Part shown: positions 37,364-49,314 of the stretch, piece after piece
Layout of the letters: each line of letters begins with the position of its first letter
Numbering within the stretch: the stretch's first letter is position 1
DNA from: Flavipsychrobacter sp.
Lineage (GTDB): Bacteria; Bacteroidota; Bacteroidia; Chitinophagales; Chitinophagaceae
Length of the DNA: 64,000 nt
Reading direction: 5' to 3'
NCBI GenBank assembly: GCA_017849575.1
Contig: JAFIGV010000027.1
Span: 62,001 to 126,000 of the forward strand
Notes under the pieces: model-generated
Told to the model about the DNA's origin: nothing
Database searches by the model: none
The model's input: only the letters and a program-made list of their open reading frames with translations
Translations under genes and position numbers: made by a program

Positions 37364-37870
37364 TTACATCGAAAAACCCCTCTGCCGAAGGAGCTTAAAG
37401 GTATCTATATGCCCAACACCAAACTGCGTACAAACATCCGGCAGCTTTATATTCTTCACAGATTCTGGCGCTGAAACTTCCTGGCTTACTACTGTAGCAT
37501 TGAGTTGCATCGCTGCAGCTACAGCGAATGGATCTGCGTTCTCAAAGTCTGAAAAAGTTTGCTTAGCAAGCGAGTTGTACTGCGGATGGTTGTTTCCCCA
37601 AAGCATGATGTTCCCATAGTGGCTCATAATCGCTTCATCGCTGTGACAGTCGAGTATCAGGTGGCGGGGTATTTCAGCGTGACACCAATCCCAGAGATCA
37701 TCCTTACCACGATCTATTTCAAACAACACTTTGTTGGTTAAAATGAAGGTGCCCTCCATAAATCGGTCTTTCATAAAATTCCAAAAGCTGGGAGCAATAT
37801 CAAAAGGATAATAAACCCTGTAGGCAGTTGTGAGGCAACTCGTATCTATGATAAAAGTCTGTGCTGCCAT
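37364..37870 (-). CDS. DUF4411 (PIN-like) protein, probable toxin
   Basis: The ATG at 37870 gives a 168-residue protein that overlaps the stop of the upstream HTH-ImmA gene by one base. It shows the PIN-like pattern of DUF4411: FIIDTSCLTTAYRVYYPFDIAPSFW at the N-terminus with the first acidic residue, a middle EIDRGKDDLWDW, and FENADPFAVAAAMQLNATVVSQE with the last acidic site. PIN-domain proteins are usually Mg2+-dependent ribonucleases and often toxins. DUF4411 genes commonly pair with HTH-ImmA genes as here, suggesting a toxin-antitoxin or defence unit. The RNA target is unknown. Confidence 0.83.
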   Translation of the reverse strand: MAAQTFIIDTSCLTTAYRVYYPFDIAPSFWNFMKDRFMEGTFILTNKVLFEIDRGKDDLWDWCHAEIPRHLILDCHSDEAIMSHYGNIMLWGNNHPQYNSLAKQTFSDFENADPFAVAAAMQLNATVVSQEVSAPESVKNIKLPDVCTQFGVGHIDTFKLLRQRGFSM

Positions 37871-39003
37871 CAACTTTCCAGATGGGTTTTGAACTTGTAG
37901 AAGGTAGAACCGTACAAGTTGGTCAGTTTGTAGGCATCGGTATAAAGCAGCTTGCCGGATTCTGCTGCACGGCTCACCGTTTCGAAGAACCTAACTCCTA
38001 CACGATAAGGTTGATTGTTGTAAAAACTACCTCCTCCACCTTCTTCATTACTCCGCGCATCCCAGTAAATTTTGTACTCGTTGTAAAACCTGAAGAACTG
38101 TGGCTTTGTGTAGATACCTAGGTCCAGCAGTCGGCGGGCTATCACCACTTTGCTCACTTTAAAGAATCGTTCAAGCACGTCGAGGTGATTCGCCCTATCA
38201 CTCACTTTCTTCCATTCCTCCAGCAACACTTGTTCTGCTACCAGCAGTTCTGCAGCCACTGCATCGCACAACTTTTCAACCTCCGTGCTCGCGGGCATCA
38301 GTTGTTCAATGTCTAAAGCAGCGGAGCGATCAAGCCAGATATGTGCCAGCTCGTGCATAAAGGTGAATATCCTTGCCGCTGGATAATCTTTGCCATTGAT
38401 AAAAATATAAGGTGCCCACTTGTTGCTGAGTACAAAACCTTTGAACTCAGCAGGGTTGAGGCTTTTGTTAGAATTGCCGAGCACACCATTCACCGCTACG
38501 AAAATGCCTGCGGCTTCTGCCTTGTTGATCACGTACTTCAGCGCGGCTTCTTTATCGGGCAAAAACTGAGACCAGTTGAGCGGCAACTGCAGCACCTGCC
38601 GGATGTCATCGGCAATAGCTTTATAATTATCCGTCTCAGAAAACCTGCCCACAAAGGGCAGCGCTTCCTCATATTCACTGCGCAGATAGTCAACAAGCCA
38701 GTCCTGACGCTGCTGTATGGTATCTATCGTTTCGCTGAGGGCGTAGCTGTAGTTAAACTCCGGTTGTTGACTGCCGGTGCGGAAGAGCGGCAGCTTGTTT
38801 TCTTTTTTAGGGAGCTCCTGCAAAAAGAAAAAACCAAAAGGCACATGCACCGCTTTGGCAAACTCTGCAAGCTGATGCACGGTGGGCTTCTTCTCCCCCT
38901 TTATCCACTCCTGCAACTGCGGAAACTTTACCCATACTCCTTCACCGGCAGACGCAGCCGCATCGCCAAGCAAAGCAGGATTGATATTGGGGTAAACACG
39001 CAT
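37870..39003 (-). CDS. HTH plus ImmA/IrrE metallopeptidase, probable antitoxin/regulator
   Basis: The 377-residue protein starts MRVYPNINPALLGDAAASAG. The N-terminal segment is a helix-turn-helix (LQEWIKGEKKPTVHQLAEFAKAVHVPFGF). The following part contains an ImmA/IrrE-type zinc metallopeptidase with FTFMHELAHIWLD (HExxH near residue 216-220). ImmA cleaves repressors in ICEBs1, and related proteins regulate toxin pairs. Here it is translationally coupled to the DUF4411 gene and likely controls it by repression and proteolysis. It is upstream in the operon, the usual antitoxin-first order. Confidence 0.85.
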   Translation of the reverse strand: MRVYPNINPALLGDAAASAGEGVWVKFPQLQEWIKGEKKPTVHQLAEFAKAVHVPFGFFFLQELPKKENKLPLFRTGSQQPEFNYSYALSETIDTIQQRQDWLVDYLRSEYEEALPFVGRFSETDNYKAIADDIRQVLQLPLNWSQFLPDKEAALKYVINKAEAAGIFVAVNGVLGNSNKSLNPAEFKGFVLSNKWAPYIFINGKDYPAARIFTFMHELAHIWLDRSAALDIEQLMPASTEVEKLCDAVAAELLVAEQVLLEEWKKVSDRANHLDVLERFFKVSKVVIARRLLDLGIYTKPQFFRFYNEYKIYWDARSNEEGGGGSFYNNQPYRVGVRFFETVSRAAESGKLLYTDAYKLTNLYGSTFYKFKTHLES

Positions 39004-39165: not shown

Positions 39166-42100
39166 TTAATACAACTGGTAGTGATGGTTCGAAAATTTAT
39201 TATCCGGTGTCTTTCTCAGGTCTGATTCTCTGATGTGTTCAAATAATTCTGCTAATTTTTCTTTGTTGATGCCATTCAAATCATCAGTTGTTATAAGTGA
39301 ATCTACGAGGCCGTGTTCGTAATAATTCTTTTTGCGTTCCTGCCAGTCATTAAAATATTTTCGGGTGTCCAACATTCCTAAATGCTCTAAGTAAATTTCT
39401 TTACCGTCACGCAGGTATATGGTAAAGTCAGGGTGAATGGTATAAGGTAGGTTCTTCAATTTCAGCGGTGCTTCATATTTAAACTTCAAGCCGCTTTTCA
39501 TAAGTGCTTCATAAATGATAAACTCAACCTTTGATGAAACTGTAACGCCAAACTCGGGCACAAACTTCGCTTTCTTGTCAACGGGTTCTGAGTAAATGGA
39601 TGTATTCCGATTGACCAAATGCGAATTGTTCTTTGCAATCATCAACAGGTTTTCATCGGTATCCTGCACAAAAATGAACAAACGATATTTTGAACGGGTT
39701 AAAGCAGTGTATAGCAATTCCTTTGAAAGCAGCGATTGCTTTTGTGGTACAACAAGAAAGACATTCCTAAAATCACTTCCTTGGGACTTGTGTACTGTGA
39801 TCGCATAAGCTAGGTCAAAATTTTCTTCACCGTCCACATAGTCCATCGGGCGATCTGTATCCCGGAAGTAATACTTTCTTTCCTCCTTCTTATACCCGTT
39901 TGACTTTACAGTAATTAATCCAGTAGATCCGTTGGATAACTTTAATCTGCGGCTTTCACCCCTGCCCACATACCAGTTATACAACCTGATGATTTTATCG
40001 GCATGATGGAAAAACTTATCTACTTTTTCATTCTCATTCTTCTTTCTGTATTTACCCTGCACTTCTTTATTTAGACCCAATGTGCCGAAATACCCGGTGC
40101 GGTAAGGTGAGAGCAGTTGCAGGTTTTCTATTTCCAGTGTTTCCCTGAATTTGAAATCCTGGTTGTTTACATAGCCATTGTCATACAAGCCAAACAATGC
40201 ATTCAGTTTTTGGAAATCACTTCTTACTTCTTTGGAAGGTTCCAAATCCATTTTAAAAACTTCTTCAAAGGCATCTGCCATCTTTGAATTGAGTTCTGCC
40301 TTGTTTTTCCATTTATATACAAACAAGCCTTTGCTCTTTTGCCCTTCGCCACTGTCAATAATGTTGAATGCTTCTTCGTAGCACCGGGTTTTGTCTGTAA
40401 ATGCATCCGCCAGTTTCAGAATATTTTCGTCATTCTCCTGACGGCAATTGGATTTCAGGTTGATGTAATGGGCTTCCAGCAACTGTTGGTTGTTCTGAAC
40501 GTGTTGTATAATGTCGTGAAAAGGTTTGCCAAAACCGATTGGCGGCAATTGGTTTTCATCACCTACCAATATAACACGTTTGGGATATTTATCGGTGAAC
40601 TTGATAATGGAAAGCAGGATGGTAAACTTGCTCAGGTCAAGCATCGAAGATTCATCTACCACCAGATTCTCAACCGTCAGCTTGTCATCTTCATCTATTT
40701 CCAGGGTTCCGTCCCAAGCTTCATAACACCAGCCGAATTTGCTTTCAAAAATGTATTTGTCAATGGTCTTGGCTTCTATGTTGGTGAGTGAAGTGTATTT
40801 CTTAATGTTTTCCGTCAGGCGTAAAGCGGCCTTGCCGGTAGGGGCAAGCACCAGCACCTCTTCGCCAATGTTGTGCAGATGCTCTATGATTTTACTGGTT
40901 TCATAGGTTTTGCCGGCACCGGGTTTTCCGGTGAGCAAATAAAACGAGTTGCCGAAAATGTTTTTGTAGAGTCGTTTTCTTTCTGCGGTAAAAAGTTCTT
41001 TCTGTTCCGGGGTTTTTACAATGTCTTTTAGTTCAGCAAGGCTGTGCTGAATATGCACATCAATATCAATTTGCTTTTTAGGTGTGTTTTTCTTGGCAGT
41101 GAGTTTCCTGATGAGTTGCTCTATCATCTCTTCCGACTTTTTCACCACTTGCAAATACAGGTATTTGTTTTCTTTGGTTTCCTTGATAAAAAGCTTCTGA
41201 ACAAAATGGTTTCGGTAATCATCTTCTAACTTCAACAAAGCATCTTCATCCAACTTGATTTCGTTTTTGTAAATCAACGGATGCTCATACAGGTCTTTCA
41301 GGATTGCATTTACCGAATCATAACAATGCCCGCTTTCTCCAATATGCCACAAATAATTCATCACTACTGAACGAACCCGTTCCGGGCTATCTTCAACCAG
41401 ATTTTGAAGTTTACGGTGGCGGTCAACGTATTTTTTATCGGGAATCATGCCCATGTCTATCTTGAACACATCAATGGGCTCATCCTGCATGTCAGGGATA
41501 TCCAAATCATCTTCATCGGCTGCATATTCCTCATACAAGGCATAGGGATTGGTTTCTATTTCCTTCAGTAGTTCTTTGTTGGCAATGATTTTACCAACCT
41601 GATTTTCGGTTAATACAAACAAGGAGAGCTTGGCAAAGGACGGGTGATGTTTCTTAAATATCCTGTTACTGCTTATTTCCAGCAATTCATCTTCAAATTC
41701 ATTTAGTTCTTCAGGAATGTTTTCATCCAATACATCTTTAAAAAATTGTATCAGGTCGTATTTATTGCTCAGCAAGGGTAGCAGGACAGCAGCTATGGAT
41801 TTAGCTACATTCAAATCCTGCACAAAATTGTTCAACACAAAGGGCAGAGACGGATACGCGCCTCTTTTCATCCAAACCTTTTCAATCAAGCTATTTATTC
41901 GCCTTTCTTCTTCTTTCAAATCAGACTTCAACACCTGCTGATTGTGTTCCTGTGCTTTTTTGATGGACTTGCGAAGTTTGTAAAGCAGATACAAACATTT
42001 GTCGTCATCCATATCCATGCTCACATATTTGAAAGCACGAATCAGTGATTCTTCTTCTATGATGACCTTAACGTCCTGAAGCAGTTGTTCACTGCCCGGG

Positions 42101-42798
42101 TTTTGCTCTACAAAACGGATATATTCACGATAAGGCAACAGCACCGCAGTATCGGGGTCGTGGGTAAATTGCAACATCCAGTTCATGGTGGGGAAGTTGG
42201 ACATTGTTACACCAGAACCTCTCGTTTCTTCTAACTCTTCTTTTGTAAACGGGAAGTGTTTGGGCACGGGCAGTTCACTTATTTCAGAACAACCCAGCAA
42301 CAAATACCGCATATCATCAGCCGAAACGGGATTGTCGTAATTGGCATAAAAGAAGATGATGGATTCCTTTGGCTTGAATTTGTTGATGTAATTGTGGATT
42401 CTTTCATCTAGGTCAGGCCAATAATTTCCGTGAATTTTCTGCTTCTTCTCGCTGTGAACAAAAGACAGTTTGTATGGCCAAGTAATGACTGAGTATTTTT
42501 TAGTCATGTCGTTGATAACGTAAGGTACCCAATTAAAAGCATGGTGATGTTCAACTGGAAAATCTTGATCGCTAAATGCATTTATGCTCCAATAGCAAGG
42601 AGGTACGCTCGATGGCGCAAAGTTACCTTTCACGTATTGCTCCTTCAGTGTTTGTTCTAAAGAAGTATTTTTCTTCTTTTCTATCCTGCCGGAAAGCAAT
42701 GAATGAGCTCCTGTGCAATAGGTGTTACCCTCTGGATTGCAGCAAACTTTGCCGTTCCAGTTGTTATCGTGCCATGCCATTCTAACTGTCAAATGCAT
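39166..42798 (-). CDS. RecD-like superfamily 1 helicase with C-terminal nuclease domain
   Basis: This 1210-residue protein has an N-terminal half (to about 600) of unknown type, starting with a Cys-rich piece (WHDNNWNGKVCCNPEGNTYC) and including IIFFYANYDNPVSADDMRYLL. Superfamily 1 motors follow: Walker A LLTGKPGAGKT near 620, motif II VVDESSML near 716, GDENQLPPIGFG, and the UvrD_C2-type AITVHKSQGSDF near 1002 with LLYTALTRSKYR. The last 120 residues contain EFIIYEALMKSGLKFKYEAP, then HPDFTIYL and EIYLEHLGML, a PD-(D/E)XK-like variant as in helicase-nucleases. It is the last gene after the methyltransferase and Shedu-like genes. An alternative ATG six codons in is possible. Confidence 0.87.
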   Translation of the reverse strand: MHLTVRMAWHDNNWNGKVCCNPEGNTYCTGAHSLLSGRIEKKKNTSLEQTLKEQYVKGNFAPSSVPPCYWSINAFSDQDFPVEHHHAFNWVPYVINDMTKKYSVITWPYKLSFVHSEKKQKIHGNYWPDLDERIHNYINKFKPKESIIFFYANYDNPVSADDMRYLLLGCSEISELPVPKHFPFTKEELEETRGSGVTMSNFPTMNWMLQFTHDPDTAVLLPYREYIRFVEQNPGSEQLLQDVKVIIEEESLIRAFKYVSMDMDDDKCLYLLYKLRKSIKKAQEHNQQVLKSDLKEEERRINSLIEKVWMKRGAYPSLPFVLNNFVQDLNVAKSIAAVLLPLLSNKYDLIQFFKDVLDENIPEELNEFEDELLEISSNRIFKKHHPSFAKLSLFVLTENQVGKIIANKELLKEIETNPYALYEEYAADEDDLDIPDMQDEPIDVFKIDMGMIPDKKYVDRHRKLQNLVEDSPERVRSVVMNYLWHIGESGHCYDSVNAILKDLYEHPLIYKNEIKLDEDALLKLEDDYRNHFVQKLFIKETKENKYLYLQVVKKSEEMIEQLIRKLTAKKNTPKKQIDIDVHIQHSLAELKDIVKTPEQKELFTAERKRLYKNIFGNSFYLLTGKPGAGKTYETSKIIEHLHNIGEEVLVLAPTGKAALRLTENIKKYTSLTNIEAKTIDKYIFESKFGWCYEAWDGTLEIDEDDKLTVENLVVDESSMLDLSKFTILLSIIKFTDKYPKRVILVGDENQLPPIGFGKPFHDIIQHVQNNQQLLEAHYINLKSNCRQENDENILKLADAFTDKTRCYEEAFNIIDSGEGQKSKGLFVYKWKNKAELNSKMADAFEEVFKMDLEPSKEVRSDFQKLNALFGLYDNGYVNNQDFKFRETLEIENLQLLSPYRTGYFGTLGLNKEVQGKYRKKNENEKVDKFFHHADKIIRLYNWYVGRGESRRLKLSNGSTGLITVKSNGYKKEERKYYFRDTDRPMDYVDGEENFDLAYAITVHKSQGSDFRNVFLVVPQKQSLLSKELLYTALTRSKYRLFIFVQDTDENLLMIAKNNSHLVNRNTSIYSEPVDKKAKFVPEFGVTVSSKVEFIIYEALMKSGLKFKYEAPLKLKNLPYTIHPDFTIYLRDGKEIYLEHLGMLDTRKYFNDWQERKKNYYEHGLVDSLITTDDLNGINKEKLAELFEHIRESDLRKTPDNKFSNHHYQLY

Positions 42799-42807
42799 AA
42801 GTTTAAT

Positions 42808-44031
42808 TTAAGCTTGTAGTGCTTTTAGAAACTCCTTGTATCTTTTCTCAGTGTCATCAATGAGGTCGCTGAATGTCCGTACTTTAAACTGACTGCCTCT
42901 ATATTTCTTCTTACGTTCAAGTTCCTCGCTTATTGTTTTTCCAATCAAAAAGCATTCAAAACTTTTTCCGCTGTGCTTCTGTTCAATGATTGAAAGATAA
43001 TTTTCAAGTTGATTAAGATCACCAATTTCTAACGAATGAGAGGGTCGTTTCAATTCAACAATGATTAACTTCTCGCCTACTGAGCCACAAACAAAATCCG
43101 GGCGTTTTTTTTCATTTCCCTTGTTTTGCTTTACAACTTCATCGCCAACGATTTTACGTAAGGTTTCATTACTGTGTAACAACCAATACCGTTCATCTAT
43201 GATCCACATGGCCCGTTCCAAAATTCGATGAATAGAGTCAGCCCCTCTTATCTCATATGTAGCATCGTCTAGTACGCGATCTTTAAATAATTCTATAGTT
43301 TGAATTCTTTCGATAACTTGATTTGATATAGAGGTGAGCTGCTTGAGAGACCAGGTTTTCAAAAGCTCAGCTAAGTCTTCCACCGCTCTTTTCCCTTGCT
43401 TAGGCAAATGGTGTACAACATCCACAAAGGCCTTCCGAAATCCAGAATCTGTTTTTGACAGTAGCTCAGAAATTTCGCGAAGAATTTCAGCTAAGTCAGC
43501 ATAGGTACTATCTTCCCATTTAGTGACATCTATTTCCTGCAGAACTTTTCTGATGAGCTCAGGGTAATTCTTGGTGAGCTTTTGTATTTGTAGATCAGAA
43601 ACCTGGTTTCCACTTGATGAAATCTGGCTTACTATTTCCGCTTTAGATTCCCAGCCAAGGAAGGGAAGAAGCTTTTCATGCGTCACAGCTATAATCTTTT
43701 CCCACTGCTCCAAATTATTGATGTTAAAAGATGTACTACCACCCGGCCACCATTTGTAAAGCGTGATGCGTTTTTCTTCGCTATCTTTTGGAAGTGTTAC
43801 TTGTGCGTAAGTATTTCCGATAACCTTTTCAATTTTCTTAATGAACTCAGGTGCAAACTTATCCTTGCCGCAATTCTTACAAACGGTTACGCTGAGAGCG
43901 TTTTCAGCATAACAACGTTGACAAATTTTGTAGGCATTTCCAGAGGTTAACGACTTGCTTATCTTTTTTGCGGTAGCCGTCTTCTTTTTAGACGCGCTGT
44001 TTTTCTTTACCGTCTTTTTGAGCTTCGCCAT
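42808..44031 (-). CDS. Zinc-ribbon plus Shedu-like PD-(D/E)XK nuclease protein
   Basis: The ATG at 44031 gives 407 residues; an alternative GTG at 44064 overlaps the methyltransferase stop. A Lys-rich N-terminus precedes a zinc ribbon with Cys37-x2-Cys40 and Cys51-x2-Cys54. A helical middle follows. The C-terminal nuclease reads RPDF (Asp312), VELKRP (Glu326, Lys328) and NQLENYLSI, with the preceding ILERAMWIIDERYWLL, the arrangement of DUF4263/SduA in the Shedu defence system. It probably cuts nucleic acid; Shedu nicks DNA. It sits 16 bases after the methyltransferase stop and 9 bases before the helicase start, within one operon. Confidence 0.85.
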   Translation of the reverse strand: MAKLKKTVKKNSASKKKTATAKKISKSLTSGNAYKICQRCYAENALSVTVCKNCGKDKFAPEFIKKIEKVIGNTYAQVTLPKDSEEKRITLYKWWPGGSTSFNINNLEQWEKIIAVTHEKLLPFLGWESKAEIVSQISSSGNQVSDLQIQKLTKNYPELIRKVLQEIDVTKWEDSTYADLAEILREISELLSKTDSGFRKAFVDVVHHLPKQGKRAVEDLAELLKTWSLKQLTSISNQVIERIQTIELFKDRVLDDATYEIRGADSIHRILERAMWIIDERYWLLHSNETLRKIVGDEVVKQNKGNEKKRPDFVCGSVGEKLIIVELKRPSHSLEIGDLNQLENYLSIIEQKHSGKSFECFLIGKTISEELERKKKYRGSQFKVRTFSDLIDDTEKRYKEFLKALQA

Positions 44032-44047
44032 AATCGCCAGAGAATTT

Positions 44048-46804
44048 TCATTTAAAATACCCACTCTCCTCCACCAGCACTCTATACAATTCCGCTTTTA
44101 CCAGTTTCACATTCCGGCTGATGTCTTCGAAGTATTCGAAGAGGTCGGTAGCCTGATGGATTTCGGCGTACTTGCGGATTTGGATTAAGCCGCTGTATGG
44201 TGTGAGGAAATCGGGATAATCGAAGTATTTGAAATAAGGCTCGTTCTCTAAGCCCACATGTTGCAGCACTTGACCTTTGGTGTAGTTGTGGTTCCAGTGT
44301 TTGTACAGGGCTTTTACCGCATCAACCAACTTCTTTGCCGTATCAGGTTTGCTGACGATTGCCGCATCGAGTGTGGTACACCAAAAGCTTTCTTTGTTGG
44401 CGGGGCAAAGCGGGTTGTCCACATACACTTCGGGCGCACCGGGCACGGGATTGTTTGCTTCAAACCTAATGACCACACACCGGTTTTCTGCCAGCACAAA
44501 TGCAAAGCATAGCGAATGCCAGTAGTCAGCCAGTTTCTTTGGGATGTTGGGTACCCAAATGTCATATTGGTTTGCCCATACAGGGTAAATACCGTTGACA
44601 ACTTTAGTGATTGCGAGCCATGTGCAACATGACTTCATTGACTTAAGATCGTAAGCGCAGTATGCATATTTATCTGCAGGTCCCGCCTGCACTTTCGTAA
44701 GATTTACATCGATAAAGGTTGGACGAAGTTGAAACCAGACTCTATCTGGAGAAGAGGACATTCTTTGACAAGAGTCTTGGCTGACTCTAACGGGTGTATT
44801 GTTGTCCATGAAGCCGATATACTCACCGTCAACAGTGCCACATTTTCGCTTTAGTTCAAAGTGATTCTTTTGATCTGAAAGAGGGAATCCGCTTACGAGA
44901 TTGTTATAATCACCTTCTTTTTTTGAATGACTAAAATCGTATCTCGGTTGTTGAATTAACTTATCCCCGCGATAGATCATTGGTAATAATCGGCGAATGT
45001 CTCCGCGGCTATTGTCCAACTTAATAAGTAGTTCGTTTTGAATTTTGCGCTTCGCACTCTTATCCACTTTCTCATCTTCCGCTCCCCAGTCTATATCGAG
45101 GTTAGAGCGCTTTAATCCTGTAAGGTCATATACCGCCACTTTGTTTTCTCTTTCCTCTTCCGGTTCATGCACCCATATCGTAAACGCCAGCGGCCATTTG
45201 CCATCCAGCTTAAAGAATTCATTGCTCGTTACGATAAAGCCGCTGTGGTACTTAAACTGTGCATCCCATTTCTTGCGAAAGGCTGCGTAAGTAGGTCGCG
45301 GTATCAGCCAGCTTGTCGGCGTAAAGATCATCACCACGGGTCTCAGCGCATCGTTGTTGCTGTGCTGCCATTGTGCAATGTTCATGATCTGCCCGAGGAA
45401 GCCCAGGTAACGTTCTTTGCCGGCATCACTACCAGTAAGTTCCAGTATACTTTCATCAATCCCATATTCCGCTTCCTTGTCTTCCCGCGCTTTCACATTT
45501 TCATCGGTGTTCTTGTAGGGCGGGTTGAGCAGAAAGGCAATGGGCTTATCGAGCTTAATGTTTTTCAGTTGCAGTTCCTTCGTTAGCTCTGCCATGTAAT
45601 CGGCAGCGTTACGGTCGAGGAAGTTTAGCCCTTTATTTTCAGAAGTCTTGGGGATAATGGTAAACCCGGTATCGAGATGAAACGGGTCGGCACGCATACG
45701 CCGCTCAATGATGCGCAGCAGGTCGGGTTGTAGTTCCGATACAATTTTGTGCTTCAGCTTTCCGCGCCAGCTACTTACTAAGTTGCCGCTTCCGCCCGCC
45801 GGGTCAAAGACGATGTAGTCTTCATTGATGTTGCCGGGGAAATGATGCTTCGCAAACCAAAGTGCAAAGCGGGAAAGATTGGCATCGGTAAAAAAGATGC
45901 CATGCTGTTTTACATATTCAGGGTCAATCTTCGCCAGCACTTCATCAAAGCGACTGAAGTAATAATCAACCGTGAGCCCTGATCCTTCGTTGGTAAAGAT
46001 GTACTGCGTTTCTACAAATCGCTCAAACTCTTTCAAGTGTTTTGTAGGAACCGGTATGGCATCAGAGAATCGTTTACCACTAAATCCGGTGATGCGCACT
46101 TCACCATGCTCGTTAGTGGAGGCATGAGAAGTAATGTCCCAATAGGGAATCATGGTATAGAAAGCATGTACCGCTTCGATGGGCGAATGAAACATACTCT
46201 TCAACCGTTCAATGACCAGAATGAAATTGTGCTTATTCACTTGCAACCTGTCGCTGTCAAGGTTCCTTAGCAGTTTCAGTATTTCATGGCTTTCTATCGT
46301 ATAACTTTTGCCCCCTGTAAATGCGTCGTCTTTAAAGTCGGACGGAATGAGCCAATATTGCGCAGCTTTGATGATCTCGTTACGTGCGGGAACTGGAGTT
46401 TTCCTGGCGTTTTCCCTTCCTGCAACATTAGGTGCTTTTTGTGCTTCGATGGTCTTTGAAAGAATCACTGCATATTCAGGCAGGTCTTTTAGCTTCCAGA
46501 CACCGCAGAAGTTGTGGGCAATCACCATAATGGTATTGTAAGCCAGTCCAAACTTCCGCGAGTAGTGTAGTGCTTGATAAAATCCTTCTACCCATTGGCT
46601 ATATTCACTTTTGCTTTCTACAATCAGCTGCCCTTCAATGTAAACGTCCGCACCCGCAGCCTTACTTTCTATTCTAAATTTTTCTTTAAAAAGCTTAGCA
46701 AACAATGGATAAAGCAGAGGGCGCTTTGCATCTTCATTGTCATTGCTCTTTATATACCGCGCGATCTGATCTAATTCATCGGCAAAGGATGGCTGGGCTG
46801 GCAT
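44048..46804 (-). CDS. N6-adenine DNA methyltransferase with N-terminal nuclease motif (Type IIG-like)
   Basis: The 918-residue protein starts with a Type I/II R-like nuclease: Asp53, then Glu63-Ser-Lys65 in ADVYIEGQLIVESKS. The middle has SAM-binding motif I FDPAGGSGN (about 333-341) and catalytic motif IV NPPY (427-430), so the base modified is adenine N6 (Eco57I-type class). The C-terminal 350 residues, with WFQLRPTFIDVNLTKVQAG and YCAYDLKSMKSCCTW, probably form the target-recognition domain. It is the first gene of the operon, followed by the Shedu-like and helicase genes. A single-protein restriction-modification enzyme would not need those partners. Confidence 0.87.
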   Translation of the reverse strand: MPAQPSFADELDQIARYIKSNDNEDAKRPLLYPLFAKLFKEKFRIESKAAGADVYIEGQLIVESKSEYSQWVEGFYQALHYSRKFGLAYNTIMVIAHNFCGVWKLKDLPEYAVILSKTIEAQKAPNVAGRENARKTPVPARNEIIKAAQYWLIPSDFKDDAFTGGKSYTIESHEILKLLRNLDSDRLQVNKHNFILVIERLKSMFHSPIEAVHAFYTMIPYWDITSHASTNEHGEVRITGFSGKRFSDAIPVPTKHLKEFERFVETQYIFTNEGSGLTVDYYFSRFDEVLAKIDPEYVKQHGIFFTDANLSRFALWFAKHHFPGNINEDYIVFDPAGGSGNLVSSWRGKLKHKIVSELQPDLLRIIERRMRADPFHLDTGFTIIPKTSENKGLNFLDRNAADYMAELTKELQLKNIKLDKPIAFLLNPPYKNTDENVKAREDKEAEYGIDESILELTGSDAGKERYLGFLGQIMNIAQWQHSNNDALRPVVMIFTPTSWLIPRPTYAAFRKKWDAQFKYHSGFIVTSNEFFKLDGKWPLAFTIWVHEPEEERENKVAVYDLTGLKRSNLDIDWGAEDEKVDKSAKRKIQNELLIKLDNSRGDIRRLLPMIYRGDKLIQQPRYDFSHSKKEGDYNNLVSGFPLSDQKNHFELKRKCGTVDGEYIGFMDNNTPVRVSQDSCQRMSSSPDRVWFQLRPTFIDVNLTKVQAGPADKYAYCAYDLKSMKSCCTWLAITKVVNGIYPVWANQYDIWVPNIPKKLADYWHSLCFAFVLAENRCVVIRFEANNPVPGAPEVYVDNPLCPANKESFWCTTLDAAIVSKPDTAKKLVDAVKALYKHWNHNYTKGQVLQHVGLENEPYFKYFDYPDFLTPYSGLIQIRKYAEIHQATDLFEYFEDISRNVKLVKAELYRVLVEESGYFK

Positions 46805-46898: not shown

Positions 46899-47265
46899 CG
46901 CTCGCGCACGTTACCTGCGGCACCCTTAGCGGCTCGGGGCAGGCTAATCCCTCCCGGAGGGGATAGTTGTTACTTCCGCTTGGTCTGCCCCCTTTGGAGG
47001 GGGATGTGTGTAAGCCTTGTGTGTTGGCAGGGGGGAGGACGTTATAGTTTTCTCCTCCCCCGCTCGCGCACGTTATCCACCGCACCCCCTCCCGGAGGGG
47101 GGCAGGTTTTTCTTCCCCCGCTTGTGCACGTCTCCCACCGCACCCTTCGCGCTGCTCAGGGCGGGCTAATACCTCCCGGAGGGGATAGTTGTTACTTCCG
47201 CTTGGTCTGCCCCCTTTGGAGGGGGATGTGTGTAAGCCTTTTGTGTTGGCAGGGGGAGGACGTTA
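46899..47265 (+). repeat. Palindromic GC-rich repeat array, left part (5 units)
   Basis: Five palindromes are present at 46949-46962, 46988-47003, 47085-47102, 47172-47184 and 47210-47225, with cores CCTCCCGGAGGGG or CCCCCTTTGGAGGGGG. Two near-identical blocks of about 103 bases (46941-47044 and 47163-47265) differ at only a few bases. Asymmetric tags such as GCGCACGTTA and AGGACGTTA keep all units in one direction. The stop codon of the DUF559 gene lies in the last unit. The many open frames across this array are artefacts. Confidence 0.9.
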
Positions 47266-47646
47266 ATCAACTCCTCCTTCTGGTTCCCGCGCCTCAATCC
47301 ATTGTTCAATAGCGTTAGCAACTCCTCCAATCTGTTCAAGCACCTCCTTGTCCGTAAAACGTAGTACGTTGTAGCCCGACGCCTTTAGGTCAGCGTCCTT
47401 CTTTTCATCCTTCTCAGCAACTTCCTCTAAGCTATGCGTAGATCCGTCTAACTCGATAATAAGCTTCAGATCAGCACAGAAGAAGTCGGCAATGTAGTTA
47501 AGAACAGGTCGTTGCCTTTTAAAGTTATAGCCTTTCATCATGCCAGCCTTCAATACATATTTCCACAAACAGGCTTCTGCTTTGGTACCGTTTGTCCGGA
47601 GGCTACGGGCAAGGGGTTTGAGTTTTCGGTTGTAGTTATGATTCAT
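47263..47646 (-). CDS. DUF559 endonuclease-domain protein (Vsr-like)
   Basis: The 127-residue protein is a complete DUF559 domain of the Vsr-like PD-(D/E)XK clade: KPLARSLRTNGTKAEACLWKYVL (Glu24), FKRQRPVLNYIADFFCADLK (Asp54), LIIELDGSTHS (Glu65, Asp67, His71) and NVLRFTDKEVLE. All presumed catalytic residues are intact. It is flanked on both sides by copies of the palindromic repeat in opposite orientation to the gene, and its stop lies in a repeat unit. Related small nucleases are often found next to such repeats, suggesting a role in repeat spread or upkeep, analogous to RAYT/REP systems. This link is an inference. Confidence 0.92.
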   Translation of the reverse strand: MNHNYNRKLKPLARSLRTNGTKAEACLWKYVLKAGMMKGYNFKRQRPVLNYIADFFCADLKLIIELDGSTHSLEEVAEKDEKKDADLKASGYNVLRFTDKEVLEQIGGVANAIEQWIEAREPEGGVD

Positions 47647-47704
47647 TGCTGTGAGATTTACTTTCAGATATTGCTTTTCCCGTTCGGGTTATGTCTTCTT
47701 TCAT

Positions 47705-48298
47705 CCTCCCCCGCTGGCGCACACTACCCACACATGCCCCCTCCCGGAGGGGGACAGGTTTTCCTTTTTCCTCCCCCGCTCGCGCACGTTATCCCCCGCA
47801 CACCCCCTCAGTGAGGGGGACAGTTTTTTCTTCCCGCTTGGTCTGTCCCCCTTTGGAGGGGGAGGACGTTATAGTTTTCTCCTCCCCCGTTAGCGCACGT
47901 TACCTCCGGCACCATTCGCTGCTCAGGGCAGGCTAAATCCTCCCGGAGGGGGACAGGTTTTCCTTTTTCCTCCCCCGCTGGCGCACACTACCCACACACG
48001 CCCCCTCCCAGAGGGGGACAGGTGGTGTTTCCTTTTTCCTCCCCCGCTCACGCACCCTCCCGCACACGCCCCCTCCCGGAGGGGGACAGGTTTTCCTTTT
48101 TCCTCCCCCGCTCACGCACACTCCCGCACACGCCCCCTCCCGGAGGGGGACAGGTTGTGCTTTCTTTTTTCCTCCCGCGCTCGCGCACATTACCCACCGT
48201 ACCCCCCTCCAGAGGGGGACAGGTTTTTACTCCCCTGCTTGCGCACGTTTCCTGCGGCACCTTCGTGATCCTCAGCGCAGGCTAAAACCCTCCCGGAG
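47705..48298 (+). repeat. Palindromic GC-rich repeat array, right part (9 units)
   Basis: Nine palindromes lie at 47737-47753, 47803-47819, 47847-47862, 47939-47952, 48001-48017, 48069-48085, 48133-48149, 48203-48218 and, partly, 48288-48298. The commonest core is CCCCCTCCCGGAGGGGG followed by ACAGGTTTT; variants are CCCCCTCAGTGAGGGGG and CCCCCTTTGGAGGGGG. Spacing is mostly 62-70 bases. Between cores run CTCCCCCGCT and GCGCAC motifs. Units share the direction of the left part. Not a CRISPR array: spacers are themselves repeats. Confidence 0.9.
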
Positions 48299-48379
48299 TG
48301 TACAATTGAAACACAATTTAGCGAAGTCATCTGCACGTTGCCGGGCGATAATGCTCTGTTATTCGCCTCTGGCACATTG

Positions 48380-48480: not shown

Positions 48481-49314
48481 ATGAGCGTAGCAATATCTGC
48501 AGCGGAAATTAATAAGCTGCGTCAGCAGACCGGCGCCGGTATGATGGACTGTCGTAAGGCATTGACCGAAACAAGCGGTGACTTTGAAGCTGCTATCGAC
48601 TGGTTGCGCAAACAAGGTCAGAAGGTAGCGGCAAAACGCAGCGACCGCGAGGCTAAAGAAGGTGTGGTGATCGCTAAGACTTCTGCCGATAAAAAAACGG
48701 GCTTTATCGTATGCGTAAGCTGTGAAACCGATTTCGTATCGAAGAACGCTGATTTTGTTGCCTTTACCCAAAGCATCGCTGATGCTGCCGTGGACAATAA
48801 TGTAAAATCTGCAGATGAGCTGAACGAAGTATCTATCAATGGCGCTAAGGTTTCGGATCTGATCAATGATAAACTGGCTGCCATCGGTGAGAAGATAGGC
48901 ATCGTAGCGTTTGAAAGAGTGGAAGCGCCTTATGTGGCCGCATATATCCACGGTGCCAACCGCATTGGTGTGTTGGTAGGTATGAGCAAGGAGGCTGAAG
49001 AAGCTGGTAAGGATGTAGCCATGCAGATCGCTGCGATGAATCCTGTAGCCTTAAATGCAGACAGCGTAGCGCCTGAAGTGATAGAAAGAGAGCGTGCTAT
49101 TGTGATGGAAACCATGCAAAATGATCCCAAGATGGCGGGCAAGCCTCAGGATATGATCGCCAAGATCGCAGAAGGTAAGCTGGGCGCTTTCTTTAAAGAA
49201 AACACCCTGCTGGCACAGCCTTTTGTAAAAGATGCGGGTAAGTCTGTTGCCGACTATCTGAAAAGCGCCGGAGACGTAACTGTTACAGAATTTAAGCGTG
49301 TAGCTGTAGGATAA
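48481..49314 (+). CDS. tsf: Elongation factor Ts
   Basis: The 277-residue protein starts with the EF-Tu-binding N-terminal UBA-like domain, RQQTGAGMMDCRKALTETSGDFEAAIDWLRKQG, then the KEGVVIAKTSADKK and VSCETDFVSKNADF core blocks, and a second core part to the end (GKLGAFFKENTLLAQPFVKD). It exchanges GDP for GTP on EF-Tu. The length is normal. In most Bacteroidota tsf follows rpsB in one operon; here rpsB is absent and the repeat array with the DUF559 gene lies upstream, so tsf must use its own promoter. A terminator follows 30 bases on. Confidence 0.97.
   Translation: MSVAISAAEINKLRQQTGAGMMDCRKALTETSGDFEAAIDWLRKQGQKVAAKRSDREAKEGVVIAKTSADKKTGFIVCVSCETDFVSKNADFVAFTQSIADAAVDNNVKSADELNEVSINGAKVSDLINDKLAAIGEKIGIVAFERVEAPYVAAYIHGANRIGVLVGMSKEAEEAGKDVAMQIAAMNPVALNADSVAPEVIERERAIVMETMQNDPKMAGKPQDMIAKIAEGKLGAFFKENTLLAQPFVKDAGKSVADYLKSAGDVTVTEFKRVAVG

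Follow-up and report, generated by a model that had tools for sequence, protein, structure and literature searches.

The operon and its genomic setting

The window analysed here, a 64,000-nucleotide stretch of DNA from Flavipsychrobacter sp., carries between positions 39166 and 46804 an operon of three open reading frames (ORFs) on the same strand:

44048-46804, minus strand: fused nuclease-methyltransferase, 918 residues
42808-44064, minus strand: zinc-ribbon nuclease, 418 residues from a GTG at 44064 (42808-44031, 407 residues, from the ATG at 44031)
39166-42798, minus strand: PDC-S68 RecD-like helicase, 1210 residues

The start positions of the aligned nuclease relatives lead us to prefer the ATG at 44031, and with this start the ORF list yields intergenic gaps of 16 and 9 bp, exactly as the original prediction, made from the letters and their reading frames, had described the reverse operon. 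We infer that the three genes are co-transcribed; a Bacteroidota promoter pattern has no match within 300 bases upstream of the methyltransferase gene. The G+C contents of the nuclease (0.39) and helicase (0.40) genes lie below those of the methyltransferase gene (0.46) and of the whole window (0.475), which is consistent with separate acquisition.

The operon is flanked on one side by tsf (48481-49314), and on the other by genes which in genome G395 lie ~2 kb from the 3' end of tsf. The rpsB gene (G000:C16:137010-137900) is found ~26 kb away from tsf and on the opposite strand, while rpsB (named by eye) and tsf are directly adjacent in six relatives (L163-L168). In a seventh relative of the same genus (L169) only 500 bp of contig precede tsf and the partial ORF located there is not rpsB, so that the split may not be unique to the genome of the window. 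The gap between the operon and tsf is filled by a cluster of G+C-rich repeats (46899-48304), of which BLAST detected no similar copy in the stretch around rpsB. This arrangement is likely explained by an inversion together with an inserted island, with an assembly error at the repeats as a possible source of the tsf/rpsB split.

The repeats themselves are imperfect, 28 to 122 nt long, contain CCCTC..GAGGG palindromes and surround a gene for a DUF559 endonuclease-like protein (47263-47646). Across ten DUF559 loci, taken from four of the nine genomes searched, such palindromes number 8 per 3.3 kb in the window's own locus (L194) and in L192, two in L190, one in L193 and none in the other six, with 7 in 55 kb at the tsf loci that served as control; palindromic repeats and DUF559 gene may possibly constitute a mobile repeat with its own endonuclease. 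Another DUF559 match in the same genome (G000:C13:6985-7311) lies inside a 1293-residue frame. On the far side of the operon, 162 bp past the helicase gene and on the same strand, genes for an ImmA/IrrE-like protein (PADLOC RmrA match of 52.8 bits) and then a DUF4411 protein (136 bits) occupy positions 37364-39003, probably as a toxin-antitoxin or defence pair.

Three proteins and their relatives

The 918-residue protein is best read, from its motifs and their order, as an IIG-like restriction-modification (R-M) enzyme of a divergent family. The key residues of the motifs singled out in the original prediction are invariant in all five aligned rows, the window's included: those of an N-terminal PD-(D/E)XK nuclease (D53 and E63-x-K65, ESK in the window), of the SAM motif, or motif I (D334-x-A-x-G-S-G-N341, FDPAGGSGN in the window), and of motif IV (NPPY, 427-430). 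With a nuclease motif, an adenine methylase and a specificity region, presumed to be the C-terminal part and to serve target recognition, in a single chain, the protein resembles type IIG and ISP enzymes, and the architecture proposed at the outset is thus supported. Unlike these enzymes, however, it has no Pfam or NCBIfam match above cut-off (nor does Pfam return one for any of the five aligned proteins), and its PADLOC matches are weak (mad2, E 3.7e-5; REase_MTase_IIG, E 0.014). Neither the Pfam models Eco57I, MmeI and N6_Mtase nor PADLOC REase_MTase_IIG claim it as a member, and since no HMM matches above cut-off we use the label 'IIG-like' rather than assigning the protein to type IIG. Its relatives behave similarly: L059 and L189 match MTase_II or mad2 (E 3e-4 to 8e-4) and L059 the IIG model (E 0.008), L188 and L144 have no PADLOC match at 0.01, and a sub-threshold PDDEXK_3 match (residues 47-91, E 0.17) appears in L188 only.

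Profile comparison aligned residues 183-550 with a Bacteroidota nuclease-methylase family of ~820 residues (L180; 98.3%, E 1.9e-14), which exhibits E-x-K, G-x-GN and NPPY in the same motif order; in one locus of this family (L020:1-3099, genome G314) the frame extends across a DUF559 domain that has in-frame repeats around it. Searching PDB sequences with profiles of the methyltransferase yielded no informative relative, and an AlphaFold model built from two rows has a mean pLDDT of 34.

Four full-length relatives of the methyltransferase were identified, with sequence identities of 65% (L188), 50% (L144), 49% (L059) and 46% (L189). L059 is the sole full-length match in 394 other Bacteroidota genomes, two further genomes being matched in part only; L188 and L189 represent the full-length matches in 379 other genomes of the class sample (two genomes, with seven more matched in part only), and L144 lies at the end of one IMG/VR viral contig. 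Their surroundings differ: L059 adjoins a gene with a weak response-regulator match and a gene with a HATPase_c domain, L188 two ORFs without assignment, a SecB-like gene and an Abi_2 gene, and L144 is preceded by long ORFs that by eye are phage tail-like, while L189 appears to stand alone, with no defence-like neighbour seen by eye.

The second protein comprises a four-cysteine ribbon, a helical middle part and a C-terminal PD-(D/E)XK domain (PDF...ELK). The zinc ribbon and nuclease motif originally noticed are fully conserved, with C48, C51, C62, C65, P322-D323-F324 and E337-x-K339 invariant in the four aligned rows (the window's included). The ribbon resembles that of ribosomal eL40, and a PDB search with the nuclease profile returned ribosomal zinc-ribbon proteins only. 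The AlphaFold model has a mean pLDDT of 50, with residues about 320-410 reaching 67-87, and in a Foldseek search with this model NucS/EndoMS ranks first, with no match having an E-value below 0.001.

The original prediction had called this nuclease Shedu-like. The direct comparison did not bear this out: SduA_C (PF14082) is unlisted for the protein in Pfam at E-values up to 1, and PADLOC returned no Shedu model. The relationship emerges through intermediates instead. Four of the partial nuclease matches, proteins of 584-619 residues, were combined in an alignment (A4), and hhalign matched the window's nuclease to it with 99.6% and an E-value of 2.7e-24 over 287 columns. The A4 proteins possess a GHKL ATPase in front (Pfam, 3/3 tested), and all four match the BbrUII/HgiDII restriction enzyme model, each below cut-off; the nuclease itself matches that model weakly (32 bits, cut-off 550). 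When three A4 members were compared with SduA_C, L060 (32.5 bits) and L062 (28.3 bits) passed the 27-bit Pfam cut-off and L061 did not reach an E-value of 0.001. Owing to the homology with A4 and the SduA_C matches of L060 and L062, 'Shedu-like' is acceptable for the nuclease at the superfamily level, with restriction enzymes as its near relatives. About 300 C-terminal residues are thus homologous to the C-terminal part of both Shedu (SduA) and the BbrUII/HgiDII enzymes with GHKL ATPase, whereas the N-terminus carries a zinc ribbon in place of that ATPase. Variable N-terminal modules, of a sensory kind, are described as a feature of Shedu nucleases in the available text of PMC12839542.

Two A4-type nucleases with a GHKL domain (L061, by HMM; L064, by eye) adjoin C5 methylases. 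At L061:4754-8442, in a genome from the family to which the window belongs, a Vsr-like ORF (identified by eye), a C5 methylase and the GHKL-ATPase nuclease lie in a row that looks like a BbrUII/HgiDII-type R-M system.

Among 395 genomes of the phylum and 380 of the class, the window's gene is the only whole-length match to the nuclease, with 12 and 6 other genomes, respectively, matching in part. Three full-length relatives (L001-L003) were obtained from 3 of 25 candidate stretches in one scan of GTDB contigs. The first begins two bases behind the C-terminus of another methylase of the Eco57I/TaqI type, the second (Taishania) follows a cluster encoding a PLD-SNF2 helicase and an AAA_13 protein, ~640 bp downstream of it, and the third (Planctomycetota) is located between hsdS and hsdR. 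Shedu is regarded as a lone defence gene; in contrast, the nuclease resides here in an operon and at L001 and L003 is an immediate neighbour of R-M genes.

The third protein matches PDLC05064, the PADLOC model for the phage defence candidate PDC-S68, over its full length (residues 1-1209) with 1437 bits. RecD2 and RecD HMMs match it below cut-off, and RecD2 and RecD chains are its best PDB sequence matches. The predicted 1210-residue helicase stands: in nine aligned rows (the window's included) G624, G627, G629 and K630 of Walker A (GKPGAGKT in the window) and D715-E716 are invariant. The C-terminal nuclease assigned to it is likewise represented by an invariant domain (D1124-F-T...E1138-H-x-G1141, 9/9), but as E-H-x-G takes the place of the textbook E-x-K of PD-(D/E)XK enzymes, nuclease activity is a prediction. 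The N-terminus, for which Pfam lists no domain, exhibits the pattern R-x2-W-H-x3-W-x-G-x2-C ... N-x2-C ... C68, again invariant in all nine rows, and this conservation suggests that H10, C19, C28 and C68 may form a metal site. Taken together, the three nuclease-type motifs, one motor and one methylase counted originally are supported.

Recurrence of the genes beside other R-M systems

PDLC05064 matches 318 of 395 genomes in the phylum sample, mostly through generic RecD cores; matches above 400 bits and over most of the model are confined to nine genomes, the window's included. We read 14 helicase loci outside the window: eight from the phylum sample, three from IMG/VR with an intact N-terminus, and three on plasmids. 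In the IMG/VR scan the best 80 of 361 matches were kept and 79 loci returned, 75 of which, with matches beginning at or after residue 355, were left out; L068 is outside the count because its contig lacks the N-terminus. The plasmid loci are three of the four with an N-terminal match, the fourth (Rhizobium plasmid H30) being left out, as were the phage matches H31-H32. Eight of the 14 have R-M or DNA-methylase genes in the same-strand cluster as the helicase:

L051, same strand: hsdM-hsdS-DUF262-helicase-hsdR
L052, same strand: type I genes and helicase
L053, same strand: hsdM-hsdS-hsdR-OLD-helicase
L054, same strand: SNF2 gene, Eco57I (IIG-like) methylase, SMC-like gene, helicase
L066, same strand: helicase-hsdR
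L067, same strand: hsdM, hsdS-like gene (by eye), Abi_C, hsdR, helicase
L145 (Hymenobacter), same strand: N6_N4 methylase, one ORF between, helicase
L146 (Paracoccus), same strand: type ISP enzyme 18 bp upstream of the helicase

At L147 (Bartonella, as annotated) type I genes lie on the strand opposite to the helicase, in L057 and L065 the helicase belongs to a HEPN/SNF2-sacsin cluster, and at L055, L056 and L058 no R-M gene was seen nearby. The loci from plasmids and viruses carry a bias towards mobile DNA. Counted alone, the phylum sample has a same-strand R-M or methylase cluster at four of its eight loci, and at three of eight the helicase has an N6_Mtase gene no more than 10 kb away, compared with 0.2 expected (P about 7e-4), an expectation that ignores the general clustering of defence genes. 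We take the 'S' in PDC-S68 to denote a single gene, and it is in this respect that the helicase, here and at the eight outside loci, departs from the PADLOC entry; no paper containing the string PDC-S68 was found in the open-licence literature.

One of the other helicase settings is itself recurrent. A cassette of a HEPN_Swt1-SNF2 helicase, a sacsin-like ATPase and a PDC-S68 helicase occurs in a Bacteroidota genome (L057:1351-11791) and on an IMG/VR contig (L065:2893-13711), its first two genes being called by HMM in the former and by sequence resemblance in the latter; in recurring, it is unlike the trio of the window.

Among the loci and genome samples searched, no locus or genome besides the window's contains all three genes, and as far as searched the trio is unique to the window. 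This goes against the single multi-part defence system envisaged in the original prediction, which had itself named rare co-occurrence in other genomes as evidence to the contrary; the absence rests on few cases, since the families are rare (five full-length methyltransferases and four nucleases, the window's included). Full-length PDC-S68 went undetected in all three genomes that encode a complete methyltransferase relative (G212, G491 and G535), which contain RecD-core matches only, and in the three with a nuclease relative (L001-L003), where the methyltransferase was looked for within the loci read. The nuclease has no match at E 0.001 in the genomes of L059, L188 and L189, the class-sample scans for nuclease and methyltransferase having drawn the same genomes, and none in six of the eight other phylum-sample helicase genomes; G194 and G301 contain partial matches on other contigs.

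Scans of IMG/VR with single sequences, and one with the nuclease alignment, yielded no lead. Searches of the plasmid and phage collections returned no match to the methyltransferase. The nuclease has none in the phage collection and partial matches in six plasmid records, none over 80% of the query; the whole helicase matches 404 plasmid records, only three of which cover more than 80% of it, and its 600 N-terminal residues match four plasmid and two phage records. That the trio originated in a phage or plasmid is hence not supported, L144 on its viral contig being the exception. We also rejected the identification of the set with a named system: as originally surmised, none with these genes was found in PADLOC, Pfam, NCBIfam or the open-licence literature searched.

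A possible accessory layer of restriction

These observations lead us to favour, with moderate confidence, a reading of the operon as an IIG-like single-chain R-M enzyme accompanied by two independently mobile add-on effectors. Helicase and nuclease recur beside other R-M genes without each other, and the full-length methyltransferase relatives, having other partners or none recognised, count for this reading as well; counted against it is the tight spacing of 16 and 9 bp, which could mean true functional coupling of all three genes. Judged by its architecture, the 918-residue enzyme would methylate a site in the host DNA and cut unmarked DNA, while zinc-ribbon nuclease and PDC-S68 helicase would be interchangeable accessory modules that plug into several types of R-M operons. 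The helicase-nuclease would most likely load on ends made by restriction (or by phage replication), unwinding the cut DNA and degrading it; the zinc-ribbon nuclease would most likely act as a second, Shedu-type DNA cutter. Since its relatives carry a GHKL ATPase, which the ribbon replaces, and the N-terminal sensory modules of Shedu nucleases vary, the ribbon is perhaps a sensor. Activities, trigger and any physical coupling of the add-ons are matters on which we can only infer. Given the three of 14 loci without R-M genes nearby, the helicase may also act by itself, in line with its PADLOC classification.

Defence genes cluster in general, and the trio could consist of three unrelated defence genes which share a landing site, each working alone and without coupling. 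The differing base composition, the independent partners elsewhere, the PDC-S68 genes without R-M neighbours (L055, L056, L058) and the adjacent ImmA/IrrE-DUF4411 pair, which suggests an island, all agree with such a view. Helicase and nuclease are, however, found repeatedly within R-M operons of various types or immediately after them, an association more specific than loose clustering, and we thus consider this explanation unlikely. It is also rather doubtful that the operon encodes one dedicated three-part system, in which methylation marks self and both helicase-nuclease and zinc-ribbon nuclease are obligate effectors. The shared strand and short gaps fit it, as does the recurrent pairing of methylase and helicase (the Paracoccus ISP enzyme 18 bp before the helicase; the IIG-like methylase and SMC-like gene ahead of it in L054), but a second copy of the trio was not seen, full-length PDC-S68 was undetected in all genomes with a methyltransferase (3/3) or nuclease (3/3) relative, the nuclease is unmatched in the genomes of L059, L188 and L189, and the L189 methyltransferase lacks a defence-like neighbour by eye. 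That the add-ons guard the R-M enzyme, becoming active only once it is inhibited by an anti-restriction protein of a phage, in the manner of PrrC and EcoprrI, is very improbable: it has precedents in PrrC and PARIS (available text of PMC12707154 and PMC12839542) and a similarly embedded helicase in L051, but Pfam, PADLOC and NCBIfam detect no toxin-like or tRNA-nuclease domain in either add-on, both look like DNA enzymes, and contact with the R-M enzyme has no support.

Add-on effectors for an R-M enzyme would have counterparts among methylation-based systems with extra nuclease genes in their operons. According to the portions of the sources available, prrC lies within a type IC locus, its product being activated on inhibition of EcoPrrI (PMC12707154, PMC12839542), PARIS senses Ocr (PMC12707154, PMC12839542), TgvAB provides a nuclease precedent embedded in a type I cluster (PMC11411939), and BREX operons contain auxiliary nucleases (PMC12839542). 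Their backup nucleases are different ones, however, and PDC-S68 helicases and zinc-ribbon SduA_C nucleases do not feature in those portions. MORC and paraMORC R-M operons, with GHKL ATPase, SF2 helicases, nuclease and methylase (available text of PMC2292703), share the logic of combining helicase, nuclease and methylase; the helicase of the window is SF1 RecD-like and not SF2, and the operon is devoid of a GHKL ATPase.

More speculatively, and with somewhat less than even expectation, PDC-S68 helicase-nucleases and zinc-ribbon SduA_C-type nucleases might form a hitherto unrecognised accessory layer of R-M, portable effectors that serve type I, IIG, ISP and other methylase systems by finishing or backing up the cutting, perhaps as a RecBCD-like machine for restricted DNA, with the 918-residue enzyme founding a new family of fused nuclease-methylases. 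R-M is usually pictured as a methylase plus a nuclease. If it is true that different R-M types repeatedly recruit the same helicase and nuclease, restriction would have a shared and testable second stage, and the PADLOC candidate PDC-S68 would gain a suggested function.
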